Position numbers and translations under genes: made by a program. DNA of 64,000 bases from Flavobacteriales bacterium (lineage in GTDB: Bacteria; Bacteroidota; Bacteroidia; Flavobacteriales_D; Crocinitomicaceae), in NCBI GenBank assembly GCA_018883325.1, contig VEQH01000002.1, positions 62,001 through 126,000 of the forward strand. The letters run 5' to 3'. A model generated the notes under the pieces. It was given only the letters and a program-made list of their open reading frames with translations. It did no database searches and was not told the DNA's origin. This document shows positions 427-62,195 of the stretch, piece after piece; position 1 is the stretch's first letter; the number at the start of each line of letters is the position of its first letter.

Positions 427-1974
427 ATGCAGGGTAAAATTCTTTGGGCGGACGATGAAATTGAGTTGTTGAAACCTCACATTCTATTTTTAGAAGCAAA
501 AGGTTACAGTGTTGACCCCGTTACAAATGGGATGGACGCAGTTGATAAAGTTCAAGAAAAATCCTACGATATTATCTTTTTGGATGAAAATATGCCAGGA
601 ATTTCTGGACTTGAAGCATTGTCTAAAATAAAGGAAATCAACCCGTTGGTTCCCGTAGTGATGATTACTAAAAGTGAAGAAGAATACATTATGGAAGAAG
701 CAATTGGCAGTAAAATTGCCGATTACTTAATCAAACCTGTGAATCCAAATCAGATTTTATTGAGCATTAAAAAGAATCTCGACCACAGCAAATTAGTTTC
801 TCAAAAAACAAATTCGAACTATCAACAAGAATTTCGTCAATTGGGAATGTTGCTAAATGGACGTTTAGATGCACAAGAATGGAGCGATTTATATGCAAAA
901 TTGTGTTTTTGGGAATTAGAATTGGATAAAATTGAAGATTCTGGAATGCGAGAAATTCTGGAAATGCAGAAAAAAGAAGCCAATCATTTGTTTGCTGATT
1001 TCATTGAAGATAATTATTTGGATTGGATGAATGGAACTGAAGAAGCGCCACAAATGATTCATTCTTTGATAAAAGATAAAATTGCACCGAAAATTGGACA
1101 AGAAAAACTGGCAGTACTTGTGATTGATAATCTACGTTATGACCAATGGAAGATGGTTGAACCAATTTTCTCCAAGTACTTTGTGAAAGAAGAAGAAGAA
1201 ATTATTTACTCTATTCTGCCAACAGCAACTCACTATGCACGAAATGCATTTTTTGCAGGTTTACTTCCTTCAGAAATCGAAAAACGTTTTCCTAATTTAT
1301 GGAAAAATGAAGAAGATGAAGGTGGGAAAAATATGCACGAAAAAGATTTCTTGGAGGCAAACTTAAAACGACTTGGTAAAAACGTAAAATGGTCGTATCA
1401 TAAAATTACGAATGTTGAAGCCGGGAAAAAATTGTCGGAAAACTTCAATACGATTAAGGAAAATGATGTGAATTTCATCGTTTATAATTTTGTGGATATG
1501 CTTTCTCACGCGCGAACAGAAATGGAAGTTATTCGGGAATTAGCAGAAAACGAAGCGGCATATCGTTCGATTACTGTTTCTTGGTTGGAGCATTCTCCGC
1601 TTCTAGAAATCATCAAAAAAATAGCTGATGCTGGAATTCGTTTGGTAATTACCACGGATCACGGAACAATTCGTGTGAAAAATCCAGTGAAAATCGTAGG
1701 AGAACGCAATACAAACACGAATCTTCGCTATAAAGCAGGTCGCGGCTTGAATTACAATACGAAAGAAGTTTTTGTAGTGAAAAATCCACAGGAAGCGTTT
1801 TTGCCAAAATTGAAAATGTCGGCGGAATTTGTTTTTGCAAGGGAGCAAGATTTCTTTGTCTATCCCAACAATTACAACCATTTCGTGAATTATTACAGCG
1901 ACACTTTCCAACACGGTGGAATTTCATTGGAAGAATTACTGATTCCTTATGTGGTTATGAAAGCAAGAAAGTAA
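427..1974 (+). CDS. porX: PorX: response regulator with PglZ (alkaline-phosphatase-fold) effector domain
   Basis: This 515-residue protein has an N-terminal receiver domain: acidic pair D9/D10, phospho-acceptor D53 in FLDENMPG, switch T81, conserved K103. A helical linker follows, then a PglZ domain of the alkaline phosphatase superfamily (about 225-515). Candidate metal-site and nucleophile residues are D234, T266/T268 in LPTATHYARN, D357 and H361 in VDMLSHAR, D411-H412 in TTDHGT and H496. PorX is a cytoplasmic regulator of the type IX secretion system that works with the sensor PorY and SigP. Published work describes its PglZ domain as a zinc-dependent phosphodiesterase acting on oligonucleotides. 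Length and domain order are normal. No other T9SS machinery gene is in the window, but a T9SS cargo protein is encoded at 9630-17054. Confidence 0.95.
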   Translation: MQGKILWADDEIELLKPHILFLEAKGYSVDPVTNGMDAVDKVQEKSYDIIFLDENMPGISGLEALSKIKEINPLVPVVMITKSEEEYIMEEAIGSKIADYLIKPVNPNQILLSIKKNLDHSKLVSQKTNSNYQQEFRQLGMLLNGRLDAQEWSDLYAKLCFWELELDKIEDSGMREILEMQKKEANHLFADFIEDNYLDWMNGTEEAPQMIHSLIKDKIAPKIGQEKLAVLVIDNLRYDQWKMVEPIFSKYFVKEEEEIIYSILPTATHYARNAFFAGLLPSEIEKRFPNLWKNEEDEGGKNMHEKDFLEANLKRLGKNVKWSYHKITNVEAGKKLSENFNTIKENDVNFIVYNFVDMLSHARTEMEVIRELAENEAAYRSITVSWLEHSPLLEIIKKIADAGIRLVITTDHGTIRVKNPVKIVGERNTNTNLRYKAGRGLNYNTKEVFVVKNPQEAFLPKLKMSAEFVFAREQDFFVYPNNYNHFVNYYSDTFQHGGISLEELLIPYVVMKARK

Positions 1975-56508: not shown

Positions 56509-57155
56509 TTGCAACATATCTATCTTTTCAGTGGTCTAGGCACAGATGAACGTGTTTTTCAAAATCTTGATTTTTCGAAATATGCTATAACTTTTGTGAA
56601 ATGGATTGAGCCAACTAAAAATGAAACGATAGAATCTTATGCCAAAAATCTAGCAAAACAAATTATTCATTCCAATCCTATTTTGATTGGTCTTTCTTTT
56701 GGAGGAATAATGGCAGTGGAAGTTGCAAAACAAATTTCCACAAAAAAAGTAATTTTAATTGCTTCTGCTAAAAACAAAAAAGAAATTCCCATTTATTTTA
56801 GATTTCTTGGTTGGATAAGTATTGACGCTGTAGTTCCTACTTCACTACTAAAAAAATCAAACTTTTTATCGTATTGGTTTTTGGTGTAGAAACAGAAGCT
56901 GATAAATTAATGCTAAAAGAAATTCTTTTGGATACTAATCCAATTTTCTTGAAATGGGCTATTTCTAAAATCATCCGTTGGAAAAATATAACTTCAGTTG
57001 AAAACCTAATTCATATTCACGGAACAAATGATAGACTACTTCCAATTTATTACGTTAAATGTGATGAAAAAATAATTGGAGGTGGACACTTTATGACAAT
57101 GAATAAATCAGATGAAATAAATAAATTACTAGCCAATTATCTTGAAAATGAATAA
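56509..57155 (+). pseudogene. Alpha/beta hydrolase, split by a single-base frameshift
   Basis: The first frame starts at a TTG (56509) and reads MQHIYLFSGLGTDERVF, typical of small alpha/beta hydrolases, with the nucleophile elbow GLSFGG (S63). It stops at 56889. The second frame continues from about 56874 with VFGVETEADKLMLKE, HGTNDRLLP (acid Asp) and GGGHFMTMN (catalytic His). At 56878-56882 there is a run of five Ts; six would restore YWFFGVETEADK and one ORF of about 215 residues with a full Ser-Asp-His triad. It is either a recent pseudogene, a phase-variable tract or a sequencing error. Confidence 0.8.
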
Positions 57156-58129: not shown

Positions 58130-58167
58130 ATACTGCTAGCAAAATGCTCATTATTCGCTAGCAGTAT
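58130..58167 (-). terminator. Rho-independent terminator of the metal-receptor operon
   Basis: A perfect 11-bp stem is formed by ATACTGCTAGC (58130-58140) and GCTAGCAGTAT (58157-58167), with a 16-nt loop. On the minus strand it is followed directly by TTTTTTGAGAAAA, the expected U-run. It lies 16 nt past the stop of the small lipoprotein gene. On the plus strand there is no T-run, so termination of the 57246 gene is less certain. Confidence 0.85.
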
Positions 58168-58182
58168 ATTAACAGATAAAAA

Positions 58183-58398
58183 TCAATGCTCGTGGCAATG
58201 AACGGTGTAGGTTCCTGTTGAATCGGTGTAAGTGCCTAAAGCTTCCAAATCTTCTAAGGCTTGTCCACAAAATTCTCCCATTTCGATTTCAGCACCGGCT
58301 TTGTCATAATGACATTCGTGACATTTGTTTTTGTTGCAAGAACTTGTTGCAAATACAGTTACTAGAGCGATTGCGCTCACTAAAACTACTTTTTTCAT
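58183..58398 (-). CDS. Small Cys/His-rich lipoprotein
   Basis: The protein has 71 residues. Signal peptide KKVVLVSAIALVTVFATSS ends at the lipid-modified C21. The mature part starts CNKNKCHECHYD, with C26, H27, C29 and H30, and also has C44 and a C-terminal HCHEH (H67, C68, H69, H71). This density of Cys and His in 50 residues suggests a metal-binding site, e.g. zinc or copper. It starts 1 nt after the stop of the TonB-dependent receptor gene, so it is translated together with it. The family is unknown to me. Confidence 0.75.
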   Translation of the reverse strand: MKKVVLVSAIALVTVFATSSCNKNKCHECHYDKAGAEIEMGEFCGQALEDLEALGTYTDSTGTYTVHCHEH

Positions 58399-58399
58399 A

Positions 58400-60643
58400 C
58401 TACTTTGTTTTTAGATTTTGATTAATATTAAATTGGATGCTTAAATAAAAATTTCTGCCAGGACTAGGCATTTGAATATTTTTTAAACGCGATAAATGAT
58501 CTATGAAATTCGCATTCAATAGGTTTTTACATCCGATATTGAAAGCGATTGGAGATTTTAAATTCCAAAGAAATTGTAGGGACGCGTTGACTAAATGATA
58601 AGAGGGTGTTGGTGTTTCAATAAATGCTACACGATTCTGAGCTGCCATAAACGTATGTTGAACCAATACATCTTTTAATTGAAATTTTTTACCCCAATCA
58701 AAGGTGTATCTCAAACTCGTCGCTAAACGTGAAGGTGGCAACAAAGAAATACTGCTATCAGAATCTGTTTGCGTTTGAACGAAAGAAAAGGTCGATTCTA
58801 AATGTAAATTATGTGCAAAATGTGGATGATAATGAAAGCCTAAATCAGTCCCATAAAAAAGAACATTAGTTAACTGTCTGTATTCAAAAACGGGTAAACC
58901 ATTTGCAATTGAATCTTTAGGTTGAATGTAAATAAAATTAGAAATTGAATTCACATAAGGGTTGATAATTAATACAAGGTGTTCATTTTTCAGCTCAAAT
59001 GTCAGATCTAATTGAATTGCCTTTTCAGGTTTCAGATTTTCGTCGCCAATTTCAAAACGCAAAGCTCCGTGATGAAAACCATTTGCCAAGAGTTCGCTTG
59101 AGTGAGGAGCTCGGTAGCCTGTCGATAAGTTGGATCTAAAAGTGAAATTTGACTTAGAATATACGGCTCCAATTGCTGCATTTGGACTTCCAAACGTTCT
59201 GGAAATTTCTCCTTTACCTTTAAATTCCTCTAATGTTTTCAATAAACGTAAATCGTAACGAAGTCCTGCTTGAAAATTCCAATTAGTCAAACTATACACC
59301 CAATTTGAAAAAAATCCATTATCCAAAGTTAGTGCATCTGGTATAAGTGTTTCTGTACCTTTTGAAGTGTTTAAGGTGTTTTGAAACATCCCTTGAAAGC
59401 CATTAATTACTTTGAAGTTATTGCTGAAGCTATGACTCCATTTTAAATTATAAACGGTATTCCACAAATTCATTTGGATTCCAGGAATCGTTACTTTTTC
59501 ATCGTATTCCGTCAATTGATTTAAGGTTTGCCCGATTAATAAACTCCATTCATTTTTAGCTTTAAACCATTTATTTTCAAAGGATAAATAGTGATTATCA
59601 AAAAATTGAGCAGGAATCGTTTGTTTACGCAATTGATTTAGCACTTGAAAATCAAGCGGATTAATGATTGTGTCGTGTGTGTGTCCTGGAATTCCGCTTA
59701 CCAAATGATTAAATGAATACCTAAGATGATGCACACTGTTTTTACCATTCCAACCTAAAGCTGCTTTCACAACCGACTCTGTAAAACGAGAATTTTGAGC
59801 AAACTTCTGATTTGGGAGCTGAAAATCGGCGTGATTCGTATAGCTTCCTCCTAGCATCCATCTGACTTTTTTATTGGATTCTTTGTACATAAATCGAAGT
59901 GCTCCTCCCATTGTATTGGTTTGAGTGAAAGATTGTAGCTGCAATGAACGAGAATTGGTAGGTGCATACGCTTCGTCTGAATAATATAAAACACCACCTA
60001 GCGCATCTGCTCCATACAAAAGTGAAGCTGGACCTTTTATGACTTCTACCGCTCCAATGCCAACTTCTGAAATTCCCATTCCATGATCACCGCCCCATTG
60101 TTGTCCTTCCATTCTTAGACCATTTAACAAACTAACTACACGCATACCTTGAAGTCCTCGAATTACAGGTTTTGAAATGCCATTTCCCAAACTCGATTGG
60201 TACACTCCAGGTATTTTTGCTAATGCTTCTCCAATATTTACACTTGCAATCCCATTTAGATCAGCTAATTTTCGAGTTTCAATATGAAATGGATTCTTGT
60301 TTTGTTGAACTACTATCCCTGTGGAAACTGTAATTTCCTCCAAATCTAAGTGTCGTTCATTTAAGAAAACTTCCAATTTTGGATTACTTATCGTCAAATA
60401 ATTTAAGGTTTGTGATTCGTACCCATTTGCTGTAAAACGAAGTTGAATCAGTTCTGGGAAATTACCCAAAAACTCAAACTTTCCTAGTTCGTTTGTAATC
60501 GTACTCTCGCCCGTTTCAATGATTTGAACAACCACTTTTGATAAGGGTGAATTTGTTTCTTTATTTTTTACAACTCCAGAGAATTGTTTTTGTGAAACTG
60601 CTGAAAAAGCAAGTAACACCATTAGTAATGTATAAAATTTCAT
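58400..60643 (-). CDS. TonB-dependent receptor, ZnuD-like, probable metal uptake
   Basis: This 747-residue protein has a signal peptide ending near VSQ, CarboxypepD-like domain at about 20-95, a plug with IRGLQGMRVVSLLNGLRMEG and VEVIKGPASLLYGADALGGV, and a barrel ending LSIQFNINQNL(KTK). A loop reads SGIPGHTHDTI (P319-G-H-T-H-D), like the His-containing extracellular loop of the ZnuD zinc receptor family, and GTDLGFHYHPHFAHNLHLES is also His-rich. Flanking genes are Cys/His-rich. Together this points to zinc or another transition metal. It could instead be a siderophore receptor; the His loops make that less likely. Confidence 0.82.
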   Translation of the reverse strand: MKFYTLLMVLLAFSAVSQKQFSGVVKNKETNSPLSKVVVQIIETGESTITNELGKFEFLGNFPELIQLRFTANGYESQTLNYLTISNPKLEVFLNERHLDLEEITVSTGIVVQQNKNPFHIETRKLADLNGIASVNIGEALAKIPGVYQSSLGNGISKPVIRGLQGMRVVSLLNGLRMEGQQWGGDHGMGISEVGIGAVEVIKGPASLLYGADALGGVLYYSDEAYAPTNSRSLQLQSFTQTNTMGGALRFMYKESNKKVRWMLGGSYTNHADFQLPNQKFAQNSRFTESVVKAALGWNGKNSVHHLRYSFNHLVSGIPGHTHDTIINPLDFQVLNQLRKQTIPAQFFDNHYLSFENKWFKAKNEWSLLIGQTLNQLTEYDEKVTIPGIQMNLWNTVYNLKWSHSFSNNFKVINGFQGMFQNTLNTSKGTETLIPDALTLDNGFFSNWVYSLTNWNFQAGLRYDLRLLKTLEEFKGKGEISRTFGSPNAAIGAVYSKSNFTFRSNLSTGYRAPHSSELLANGFHHGALRFEIGDENLKPEKAIQLDLTFELKNEHLVLIINPYVNSISNFIYIQPKDSIANGLPVFEYRQLTNVLFYGTDLGFHYHPHFAHNLHLESTFSFVQTQTDSDSSISLLPPSRLATSLRYTFDWGKKFQLKDVLVQHTFMAAQNRVAFIETPTPSYHLVNASLQFLWNLKSPIAFNIGCKNLLNANFIDHLSRLKNIQMPSPGRNFYLSIQFNINQNLKTK

Positions 60644-60929
60644 TTTAAAATGAATTATTCTTTAGTGAAGAATTTAAAATGTAAAATGTAAAATTTAGAA
60701 TGTAGAATTTAGAATGTATCCGCCACGGATGAAGAGTTAAAATAAATTAAATACGTAAAGGCAAACTAATTTTAGTTCAACATCTTCAACTAATTGATTT
60801 TTAATAAATAATTAGCATTTAAAAAACATTCTACGACTACAGAAAGTACCTTGAATATGAAATAATGACTGATTGCTACAAAGATGTAAGCATCTAAGAG
60901 CAATAAAAAATCAAATTTTAGTCAAACTA
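60644..60929. repeat. Non-coding region with short tandem repeats upstream of the metal receptor
   Basis: At 60671-60718 an AT-rich unit repeats: AATTTAAAATGTAA (60671-60684), AATTTAGAATGTAG (60692-60705) and AATTTAGAATGTA (60706-60718). The same 13-mer occurs at 52511-52523 between tolC and the WD40 gene. At 60874-60892 an imperfect dyad TGCTACA...TGTAAGCA could be an operator, about 230 nt upstream of the receptor start. No gene was seen. Confidence 0.4.
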
Positions 60930-61232
60930 CTAAAGTGAATTGGGTGGGCCCCGAAGTAAAAAAGCTTGTATTTCCTCTTTTTCGTTTTTTGCTGTTGAAA
61001 CAGTTTGAAATTGAGGATAATTGACCTTTAAAGCTCTATAAAAAGGTACTTTATGAATTGTGAAGAATCCTAAGTCAAAATCACAAAAATGGCATGAACC
61101 ATCGTCAAAATGAGTGTCAGAATGAGAAAATTGAAACTCTTCGTGATGATCACAATGATGCCACCAATCGCGTGGCGTTAGCAACACAAAGAAATTAACT
61201 AACAGTAAAACGGAAAGAATCCGAATTTTCAT
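60930..61232 (-). CDS. Small secreted His/Cys-rich protein, probable metal binding
   Basis: The protein has 100 residues, with an N-terminal signal/membrane segment (ILSVLLLVNFFVLLTP) and then DWWHHCDHHEEFQFSHSDTH and GSCHFCDFDL: seven His (25, 26, 29, 30, 37, 41, 48) and three Cys (27, 47, 50) within 26 residues, including CHFC. The C-terminus FLLRGPPNSL resembles the R-x-PP ending of DUF2946-like small metal proteins. It lies between the MoxR gene (9 nt upstream) and the receptor (286 nt downstream), all on the same strand. A role as a periplasmic metal chaperone or buffer for the receptor is inferred. Confidence 0.75.
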   Translation of the reverse strand: MKIRILSVLLLVNFFVLLTPRDWWHHCDHHEEFQFSHSDTHFDDGSCHFCDFDLGFFTIHKVPFYRALKVNYPQFQTVSTAKNEKEEIQAFLLRGPPNSL

Positions 61233-61241
61233 TTTATAAAT

Positions 61242-62195
61242 TTACAATAATTCTTCAATAATTCTGTCCATTGAATAGCCTTCTGCTTCTGCGCGGTAAT
61301 TTCTAACCAAACGGTGACGTAAGATTGCTTTTGCAACAGCTTTTACATCTTCAATGTCAGGCGAATATTTACCATGTAAAGCAGCATGACATTTTGCTCC
61401 AACAACTAAATATTGAGAAGCTCTTGGACCTGCACCCCAAGTAATAAAATCTTTAGTTATTTGTGGAACTCCTGGGTTATTAACTCGTGTTTTACCAACT
61501 AATTTCACAGCATATTCCAAGACATTGTCTGCTACAGGAATGCGACGAATTAATTCTTGGTAATTGATTATTTCTTCACCTGAAAGTATTTTTCGCAAAT
61601 TAATTTTTGTGTCTGCTGTTGTTGCTTTAACGATTGCTAATTCTTCAACATAACTTGGATAATCGACCCAAATATTAAACATAAAACGGTCTAACTGCGC
61701 TTCTGGTAAAGGATAGGTTCCCTCCTGTTCGATTGGGTTTTGGGTTGCCAATACAAAAAATGGAGCTGGTAAAGTATAAGTTGTACCTGCAGCTGTTACA
61801 CGTCTTTCTTGCATCGCTTCCAAAAGTGCCGATTGTGTTTTTGGTGGAGTACGGTTAATCTCATCTGCCAATAAAACGTTAGCAAACAATGGTCCTTTGA
61901 TGAATTTAAAGTTTTTCGTTTCATCCAAAATTTCTGAACCAACGATATCTGAAGGCATTAAATCTGGAGTGAACTGAATACGATTAAAACTCAAACCTAA
62001 AGTCTCTGCGATTGTATTCACGAGTAAAGTTTTAGCTAAACCAGGGACACCAACCAACAAACAATGAGCACGCGAGAAAATAGAAATCAATACTTGATCT
62101 ACGACTTCATCTTGACCAATAATAATTTTATGAATCTCTTCTTTAAGTTCTTTGTAATGAACTACTAATCTGTCTATTGCTTCTTTATCTGACAT
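61242..62195 (-). CDS. MoxR family AAA+ ATPase
   Basis: This 317-residue protein has a Walker A G49VPGLAKT, Walker B in VLLADEINRTPPKTQSALLE (about 108-125), sensor 1 in FFVLATQNPIEQEGTYPLPE and the arginine-finger region PEAQLDRFMF. This is the typical MoxR signature. In Bacteroidota such ATPases usually head a batABDE-type operon (aerotolerance) with VWA proteins and act as chaperones. Here the next gene is instead the small His-rich protein, and the VWA partners are not in the window. It lies 9 nt after the PPIase gene. Confidence 0.93.
   Translation of the reverse strand: MSDKEAIDRLVVHYKELKEEIHKIIIGQDEVVDQVLISIFSRAHCLLVGVPGLAKTLLVNTIAETLGLSFNRIQFTPDLMPSDIVGSEILDETKNFKFIKGPLFANVLLADEINRTPPKTQSALLEAMQERRVTAAGTTYTLPAPFFVLATQNPIEQEGTYPLPEAQLDRFMFNIWVDYPSYVEELAIVKATTADTKINLRKILSGEEIINYQELIRRIPVADNVLEYAVKLVGKTRVNNPGVPQITKDFITWGAGPRASQYLVVGAKCHAALHGKYSPDIEDVKAVAKAILRHRLVRNYRAEAEGYSMDRIIEELL

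Follow-up and report, generated by a model that had tools for sequence, protein, structure and literature searches.

A candidate nascent-peptide switch upstream of a ZnuD-like receptor and a Cys/His lipoprotein in Crocinitomicaceae

Among described metal-responsive leader peptides, those closest to the locus reported here, a minus-strand cluster of leader, receptor, and lipoprotein genes in a Crocinitomicaceae bacterium, are CruR and CutF, both of which the DUF2946 family includes (PMC9426467, PMC9973294). The locus lies in a 64,000-nt stretch (hereafter, the window; contig VEQH01000002.1, positions 62,001 to 126,000) of a genome assembled to 4.06 Mb in 139 contigs. In CruR, a CXXC motif senses copper and a RAPP motif is required for expression, with a spacing of 45 residues that is kept within one or two residues; the CruR operon consists of three genes, including one for a TonB-dependent transporter, and has a 162-bp intergenic region (PMC9426467, PMC12914433). 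CruR arrests in vitro with two Pro codons in the P and A site, RGPP giving the most stable arrest, and upstream open reading frames (uORFs) with RAPP/RGPP precede TonB-related genes throughout Gram-negatives, copper-related ones being an exception in Bacteroidota (PMC12992588). The CutF protein is undetectable in E. coli unless its signal sequence is deleted (PMC9973294). For control of zinc uptake by a repressor, the Zur operator of many proteobacteria is GTTA-5N-TAAC (PMC4176598).

From the sequence and its comparison with relatives, we consider it likely that the leader ORF, ZnuD-like receptor, lipoprotein, and terminator of the window locus form an operon for metal-responsive import, switched by stalling of the ribosome on the nascent leader. 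The feature that carries this meaning is the C-terminal RGPP of the 100-aa leader protein, which was absent from an initial annotation of the locus. That annotation had described the two small proteins as metal chaperones or scavengers, a description that may suit at most the lipoprotein; the 100-aa protein is built like a regulatory uORF.

Leader, receptor, and lipoprotein

The leader ORF (60930–61232, minus strand) resembles the regulatory uORFs of the CruR/CutF (DUF2946) type and encodes an N-terminal hydrophobic segment, a His/Cys-rich stretch (WHHCDHH...CHFC), and the C-terminus L-R-G-P-P-N-S-L. The ten His/Cys within 26 residues that had been noted initially are present at residues 25–50. 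A CxxC motif (C47–C50, 61083–61094) is followed, 43 residues later and 3 residues before the stop, by the arrest-type motif RGPP (residues 94–97, 60942–60953); the window leader therefore has the CXXC, the C-terminal RGPP, the spacing (43), and the TonB gene downstream on the same strand that mark CruR-type leaders. H25, C50, P96, and P97 are invariant in 31/31 aligned leaders, 6 of which are matched by Pfam DUF2946 (best E 1.9e-4). All 38 family leaders have R/K-[GA]-PP 2–8 residues from the C-terminus, and 37 have CxxC (L046 is without the first Cys). Among the 37 non-redundant leaders with both motifs, the distance from CxxC to R[GA]PP is 43 in 34 and 42, 42, and 45 in the others, while the distance from WH to CxxC varies from 23 to 45. 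Because the spacing is fixed while the part before CxxC varies, this pattern argues for a ruler, although the leaders are homologous and plain descent could also fix the spacing.

Similar leaders were found beyond the family, with the leader profile matching 65 and the lipoprotein profile 20 of 247 genomes in a sample of the class. All 21 class-level leaders end in R/K-[AGS]-PP, 2–11 residues from the end; 16 of them keep CxxC at a spacing of 43–45 and five have lost the second Cys. The next gene encodes the N-terminus of a TonB receptor in all 15 class loci displayed (read by eye, three of them Pfam-checked; the remaining six of the 21 loci were not parsed). The five leaders that keep RGPP and have lost the second Cys (L170, CQLLNF; L173, CQLADF; L178, CEILNI; L179, CEMLNF; L180, CEILNF) contain many His residues and possibly serve a different metal. 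In another Bacteroidota genome (L143), one strand carries a DUF2946-like RAPP leader (1492–1824, minus strand) and, 272 nt downstream of it, a gene for a COG0523-like GTPase (29–1219, identified by eye), a pairing that likewise suggests zinc-type homeostasis.

A metal-acquisition locus around a ZnuD-like receptor, as proposed in the initial annotation, is well supported by both sequence and fold matches of the 747-aa TonB-dependent receptor (58400–60643, minus strand). Its best PDB sequence match is ZnuD (E 1.4e-19; profile E 7e-39), and the top Foldseek matches of its model (mean pLDDT 87) are ZnuD structures 4rdr and 4rdt (E 1e-38); haem receptors and OprC, a copper receptor, come next and share the fold. 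The best NCBIfam match is likewise ZnuD (NF038289, E 1e-37), at 130.1 bits and below the curated cut-off of 950 bits. The zinc ligands of ZnuD are Asp99, His100, Glu340, and His499 (PMC4557270), in a numbering that we fixed by the HSHEYDDCHAD stretch quoted in that source. In the window receptor, D186-H187 of the plug (60083–60088) aligned with Asp99-His100 and H524 (59072–59074) with His499; D186 is kept in at least 90% of 38 receptors, and H187 and H524 in 38/38. The P-G-H-T-H-D loop pointed out earlier was read as I-P-G-H-T-H-D, with the PGHTHD codons at 59672–59689, and aligned with ZnuD PAHSHE, the start of cluster 1 in extracellular loop 3 (two Cd sites). As judged from sequence and predicted fold, the receptor is ZnuD-like, with three of four ZnuD zinc ligands conserved.

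The 71-aa lipoprotein (58183–58398, minus strand) has four Cys besides the lipobox Cys as well as conserved His, and the C-H-x-C-H and H-C-H-E-H motifs attributed to it are present as KCHECHY and VHCHEH. C21, C26, C29, C44, C68, H67, and H71 are invariant in 47/47 aligned lipoproteins; because His, Cys, and Pro are invariant among aligned relatives, the motifs of leader and lipoprotein go beyond chance. The ratio of nonsynonymous to synonymous polymorphism (pN/pS), determined in three close-relative groups each, was 0.26–0.36 for the leader and 0.09–0.16 for the lipoprotein, which indicates selection on both at the protein level. Pfam and NCBIfam gave no substantial match for the lipoprotein, and a PDB fold search with its AlphaFold model (mean pLDDT 74.6) gave a best E of 0.34 and matches without a common theme; it is a small partner of ZnuD-like receptors, undescribed within Pfam and NCBIfam. 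One class-level match (L191), under a different family code, is preceded by the end of a GIPGHTHD-containing receptor. For fifteen weaker class matches, inspection by eye revealed no receptor among the displayed neighbours, and the weaker relatives displayed keep CxxC...C...C without the histidines of CxxCH and VHCxxH, which suggests that the His of the trio-specific lipoprotein, more than the Cys, are an added metal-binding feature. The lipoprotein probably helps capture or hand over metal at the outer membrane.

A search of 120 family genomes recovered the receptor in 59 (E 1e-80 or better), and a collection scan gave 33 receptor loci, of which two are only 25% identical. Every ORF of 105 loci with a receptor was compared with the profiles of the two small proteins. 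The locus counts given here leave out ten receptor loci of <35% identity (L002, L003, L069, L070, L096, L097, L098, L100, L102, and L103), near-identical duplicates, and L047 (<600 nt upstream); L004–L008 have no receptor match in the locus listing. On the same strand, the lipoprotein lies downstream in 56 of 71 non-redundant loci (at least 330 nt available downstream) and the leader upstream in 35 of 75 (at least 600 nt available upstream); the full trio is present at 28 of the 75 receptor loci compared, nearly all of them from Crocinitomicaceae. The initial annotation had named absence of the small proteins beside homologous receptors as grounds for rejecting its proposal; both recur there. 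Two leaders stand in tandem in L012, and lipoproteins are repeated in L064 (three) and in L056 and L067 (two each). The distant ZnuD-like receptors of Neomarinimicrobiota (L069 and L070) are preceded by a different protein (L069, 3334–3894; in L070, 92 nt upstream), which has CEHL close to the N-terminus and is rich in His/Asp at the other end (EEHDH, NEDHDH).

The gene order, leader, receptor, and lipoprotein on one strand, was borne out, with gaps of 286 nt and then 1 nt; the 1-nt gap lies between receptor and lipoprotein genes, and the 286-nt gap before the receptor makes the single operon proposed initially less obvious. The strong terminator reported after the lipoprotein gene was also recovered, as a 14-bp hairpin with a U-run (58130–58167, minus strand; RNA fold z −5.2, 0/200 shuffles as good) that begins 15 nt past the lipoprotein stop; a consensus terminator scan called none at the locus, probably since it allows loops of up to 8 nt and this one has 10. 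A gene for a MoxR-like AAA ATPase (61242–62195, minus strand) ends 9 nt upstream of the leader, and a MoxR-like gene also precedes the leader in L022–L024, L026, and L038–L040, other genes being found elsewhere. On the plus strand, an alpha/beta-hydrolase-like gene (56509–57155, identified by eye) is split into overlapping frames (56509–56889 and 56874–57155) in a frameshift-like manner.

A putative sigma-A -7 element, TAAATTTA (61237–61244, minus strand), is located at -12 to -5 from the leader start codon and overlaps the stop codon of the upstream MoxR gene; it differs from the consensus TAnnTTTG in the last base. Relative to the transcription start, the sigma-A -7 box of Flavobacterium psychrophilum (TAnnTTTG) occupies -12 to -5, and leaderless mRNAs are rare in this species (5.5%; PMC9723704). 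A TAnnTTT[GA] element precedes a potential start codon, at -11 to -13, in 27/38 family leaders and 9/21 class leaders, per-gene rates that are somewhat inflated since several candidate starts were allowed per leader ORF. The same motif occurs at 0/61 lipoprotein starts, a weak control as lipoprotein genes are operon-internal; as a better control, the strict motif peaks at -12 with 16 matches, the next offset having 5 (offsets -40 to -6). A consensus sigma-70 scan gave 16 sites versus 13.1 expected and was set aside. Because its start codon sits where transcription should begin after the -7-like box, the leader mRNA is probably leaderless, with the leader as first cistron of its own transcript.

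The 286-nt spacer between leader and receptor (60644–60929, minus strand) folds better than its own shuffles (z −2.7). Across 35 spacers of 33–286 nt, folding was on average better than that of dinucleotide shuffles (mean z −1.5), while six spacers of 33–38 nt were no better than shuffles (z between −0.4 and 1.0). In an alignment of ten relatives, which excludes the window's own spacer, a stem starts at the sixth nt after the leader stop; 93.7% of cells pair, versus 32–44% when slid, and there are 6 doubly changed pairs versus 3.3 in shuffles, part of this signal being expected because the structure was derived from that same alignment. The step downstream of the stall may differ between lineages.

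Leader or Zur-like repressor

Where a receptor locus has no leader gene, there is usually a divergent gene of the Fur family next to the receptor, together with a palindromic sequence, TGCAAyNNNrTTGCA, in the region of the promoter. Among the 75 non-redundant loci, this operator was found at 0/35 with a leader and at 35/40 without, and a regulator gene was found nearby at 3/35 versus 34/40; 74 of the 75 have at least one of leader, repressor, and operator. The exact core TGCAACANTGTTGCA is present in 8 of 20 genomes scanned and a reversed control in none. In 26 chosen genomes (16 of the 21 leader genomes and 10 others), a regulator like the Zur-like L011 was matched in 3/16 leader genomes versus 10/10 others; a fourth leader genome (G065) gave a weak 59-residue match within a larger frame. 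Two of the five leader genomes outside this search (G048 and G007) carry a regulator beside the receptor. Within the window's genus, 6 of 7 leader genomes searched are without a regulator match and 3 of 3 genomes without a leader have one. The window genome has no match to the operator and none to L011, and its only Fur-family gene resembles ferric Fur; Fur-type control of the window operon was rejected on these grounds.

The operator also precedes genes of CobW/COG0523 (two genomes; Pfam), MerC genes, and a LolD/FtsX-type ABC transporter, as well as further TonB receptors, an MntR-like gene, and a thioredoxin-reductase-like gene (L112, L152–L161). COG0523 proteins and such ABC systems are usual Zur targets. 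For L094, the one regulator tested, the best PDB match is E. coli Zur (4mtd, E 1e-6), ahead of PerR (3e-5), and the aligned residues include Cys and His that we take to be the regulatory ligands of Zur; in NCBIfam, five regulators scored 27–38 bits, below the Zur cut-off of 167. In sister lineages, the same receptor and lipoprotein would be controlled by the adjacent Zur-like repressor instead. Because ZnuD ranks first among the receptor's matches, three of its ligands are conserved, and the sister-lineage repressor and regulon look Zur-like, zinc is the most likely metal of the locus and the best single reading. We further suggest, as a tentative and quite possible scenario, that Zur has given way in this lineage to a nascent peptide that senses zinc and acts through ribosome arrest on a leaderless first cistron, with same-genus relatives keeping the repressor for the same receptor and lipoprotein.

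Proposed mechanism and alternative explanations

In the mechanism that we propose, the 100-aa protein would act mainly during its own synthesis. When metal (most likely zinc) is scarce, the ribosome would stall at the C-terminal RGPP, and receptor and lipoprotein would be made; binding of metal to the His/Cys region of the emerging chain would relieve the stall, so that the ribosome finishes and downstream expression stops, either by Rho-type termination as in CruR or through spacer structure. The CxxC, 43 residues before RGPP, would stand about where the chain leaves the exit tunnel, and the receptor would carry zinc across the outer membrane. We adopted the response direction of CruR, since the metal that an importer brings in should turn that importer off; CutF responds in the opposite direction. 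We infer stalling, metal identity, response direction, and all roles of the lipoprotein.

Several observations weigh against this interpretation. CruR and CutF, the characterised leaders compared, respond to copper, not zinc, and the fourth zinc ligand of ZnuD (Glu340) lies outside the aligned blocks. The window leader has no Pfam match even at E 10, DUF2946 included; since the window protein itself fails the profile, membership in DUF2946 as scored by Pfam was ruled out, and we liken the leader to CruR in its working without classing it in that family. With the MoxR gene on the same strand and ending 9 nt before it, the leader is not necessarily the first cistron. Fifteen of the 71 receptors are without a lipoprotein. 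Leader and repressor occur together at 3 of the 75 non-redundant loci, Taishania pollutisoli (L068) is a cultured relative with both, and at least 5 of the 21 leader genomes have the repressor (the three matched in the search plus G048 and G007). NCBIfam ranks Zur first for three of the five regulators and places the PerR model above Zur for the other two. Finally, the leader changes only 3 times on the receptor tree and paired tests gave p 0.5–1; an independent-pairs test of the swap has no power with 3 changes, and the association, though clean, reflects few events.

The 100-aa protein could instead be a stable chaperone or scavenger of metal, either periplasmic or anchored in the membrane, that passes metal to or from the receptor, as its conservation beside the receptor and its His/Cys-rich stretch straight after a hydrophobic segment might suggest. 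We find this doubtful, since few features are as constrained as the Pro-Pro and its distance to CxxC, the presence of the repressor operator would give no reason for a chaperone to be missing, and CutF becomes detectable in E. coli only on deletion of its signal sequence (PMC9973294). It is very doubtful that the leader matters only as an mRNA element (an attenuator or spacer structure), with no metal sensing by the peptide: the pairing and double changes in the spacers of ten relatives and the mean z over 35 spacers are in its favour, but the peptide is under purifying selection, with the His, CxxC, and Pro-Pro as its conserved parts, and the six shortest spacers fold no better than shuffles.

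The same leader mechanism might also serve copper, as in the CruR/OprC/CrtA type, or a different metal (nickel or cobalt, for example). Both CruR and CutF use Cys pairs to sense copper, OprC belongs to the PDB matches ranked next below ZnuD, and those CutF-like proteins that have His-rich motifs alone are linked with Ni/Co genes; this option has some weight and is nevertheless unlikely, given that ZnuD ranks first with three of its ligands conserved, that the repressor and regulon of sister lineages look Zur-like, and that uORFs of copper genes are the exception in Bacteroidota, TonB-related ones occurring throughout Gram-negatives (PMC12992588). A locus handling haem, with the C-H-x-C-H of the lipoprotein as attachment site for haem c, is hardly credible. 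CHECH fits CxxCH and haem receptors are among the receptor's matches, but L012 and L019 have CETCD, so neither CxxCH nor the haem-ligand His is conserved and the lipoprotein was rejected as a c-type cytochrome; weak relatives keep the four Cys without that His, and ZnuD itself was formerly misannotated as a haem receptor (PMC4557270).

If the proposed switch is correct, zinc joins copper among the metals sensed by arrest peptides, and it becomes possible to test directly which metal a DUF2946-type leader recognises; an apparent metal chaperone becomes a testable gene switch. The receptor–lipoprotein pair, placed under a leader peptide or under a repressor with a palindromic operator even within one genus, represents a natural experiment. 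Because leader matches occur in 65 of the 247 class genomes, many "hypothetical" or "metal-binding" proteins may be such switches.

Relation to known systems

The locus is like Bordetella pertussis CruR-BfrG/CrtA-BP2921 in having three genes, with an exported small ORF first, a TonB receptor second, and a long spacer (PMC9426467, PMC12914433), and in combining CxxC with a C-terminal RAPP/RGPP at near-equal spacing (45 in CruR, 43 here). The third gene of the CruR operon encodes a PepSY_TM protein (PMC9426467), in place of which a small Cys/His lipoprotein is found here; the locus further differs in its ZnuD-like receptor, the His-rich stretch of the leader, the predicted zinc, the probably leaderless mRNA, and its occurrence in Bacteroidota. 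With Rhodobacter capsulatus CutF-CutO-CutG it would share a nascent exported sensor resembling the DUF2946 family, with a Cys pair and a Pro-rich C-terminus, that controls the next gene; CutF, however, turns a copper detoxification enzyme on with copper, whereas the importer here should go off with metal (PMC9973294).

As in the RAPP/RGPP arrest peptides, a small secretory protein with RGPP near its C-terminus is encoded upstream of a TonB-dependent receptor (PMC12992588, PMC10987492). The available parts of these two reports include no zinc leader, ZnuD-like receptor, or repressor swap among the arrest peptides, and the Bacteroidota clusters in PMC10987492, unlike the leader here, precede secA/secDF and end in a single Pro. 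A literature search that covered titles and abstracts, with most subscription papers and the supplementary tables on arrest peptides (which may list such loci) outside its scope, found no zinc-type arrest leader.

Like Zur regulons, the sister lineages have a Fur-family regulator and an operator that precedes COG0523 and metal-transport genes, although this operator, TGCAAyNNNrTTGCA, differs from that of many proteobacteria (PMC4176598) and was not found in the window genome. The receptor shares with neisserial ZnuD the fold, three of four zinc ligands, and a His-containing extracellular loop (PMC4557270); unlike ZnuD, to which it is 18–20% identical in structural alignments, it has an N-terminal CarboxypepD_reg domain and is accompanied by the leader and the lipoprotein. 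The initial annotation had called the locus undescribed, which holds for the lipoprotein as far as Pfam and NCBIfam are concerned and only in part for the leader: the class of mechanism is already known, and RAPP/RGPP uORFs in front of TonB receptors are published (PMC12992588). As far as our literature searches show, what this locus adds to the known systems is a zinc-type receptor under such a leader, a Cys/His lipoprotein, a probably leaderless leader mRNA, and an exchange with a Zur-like repressor.

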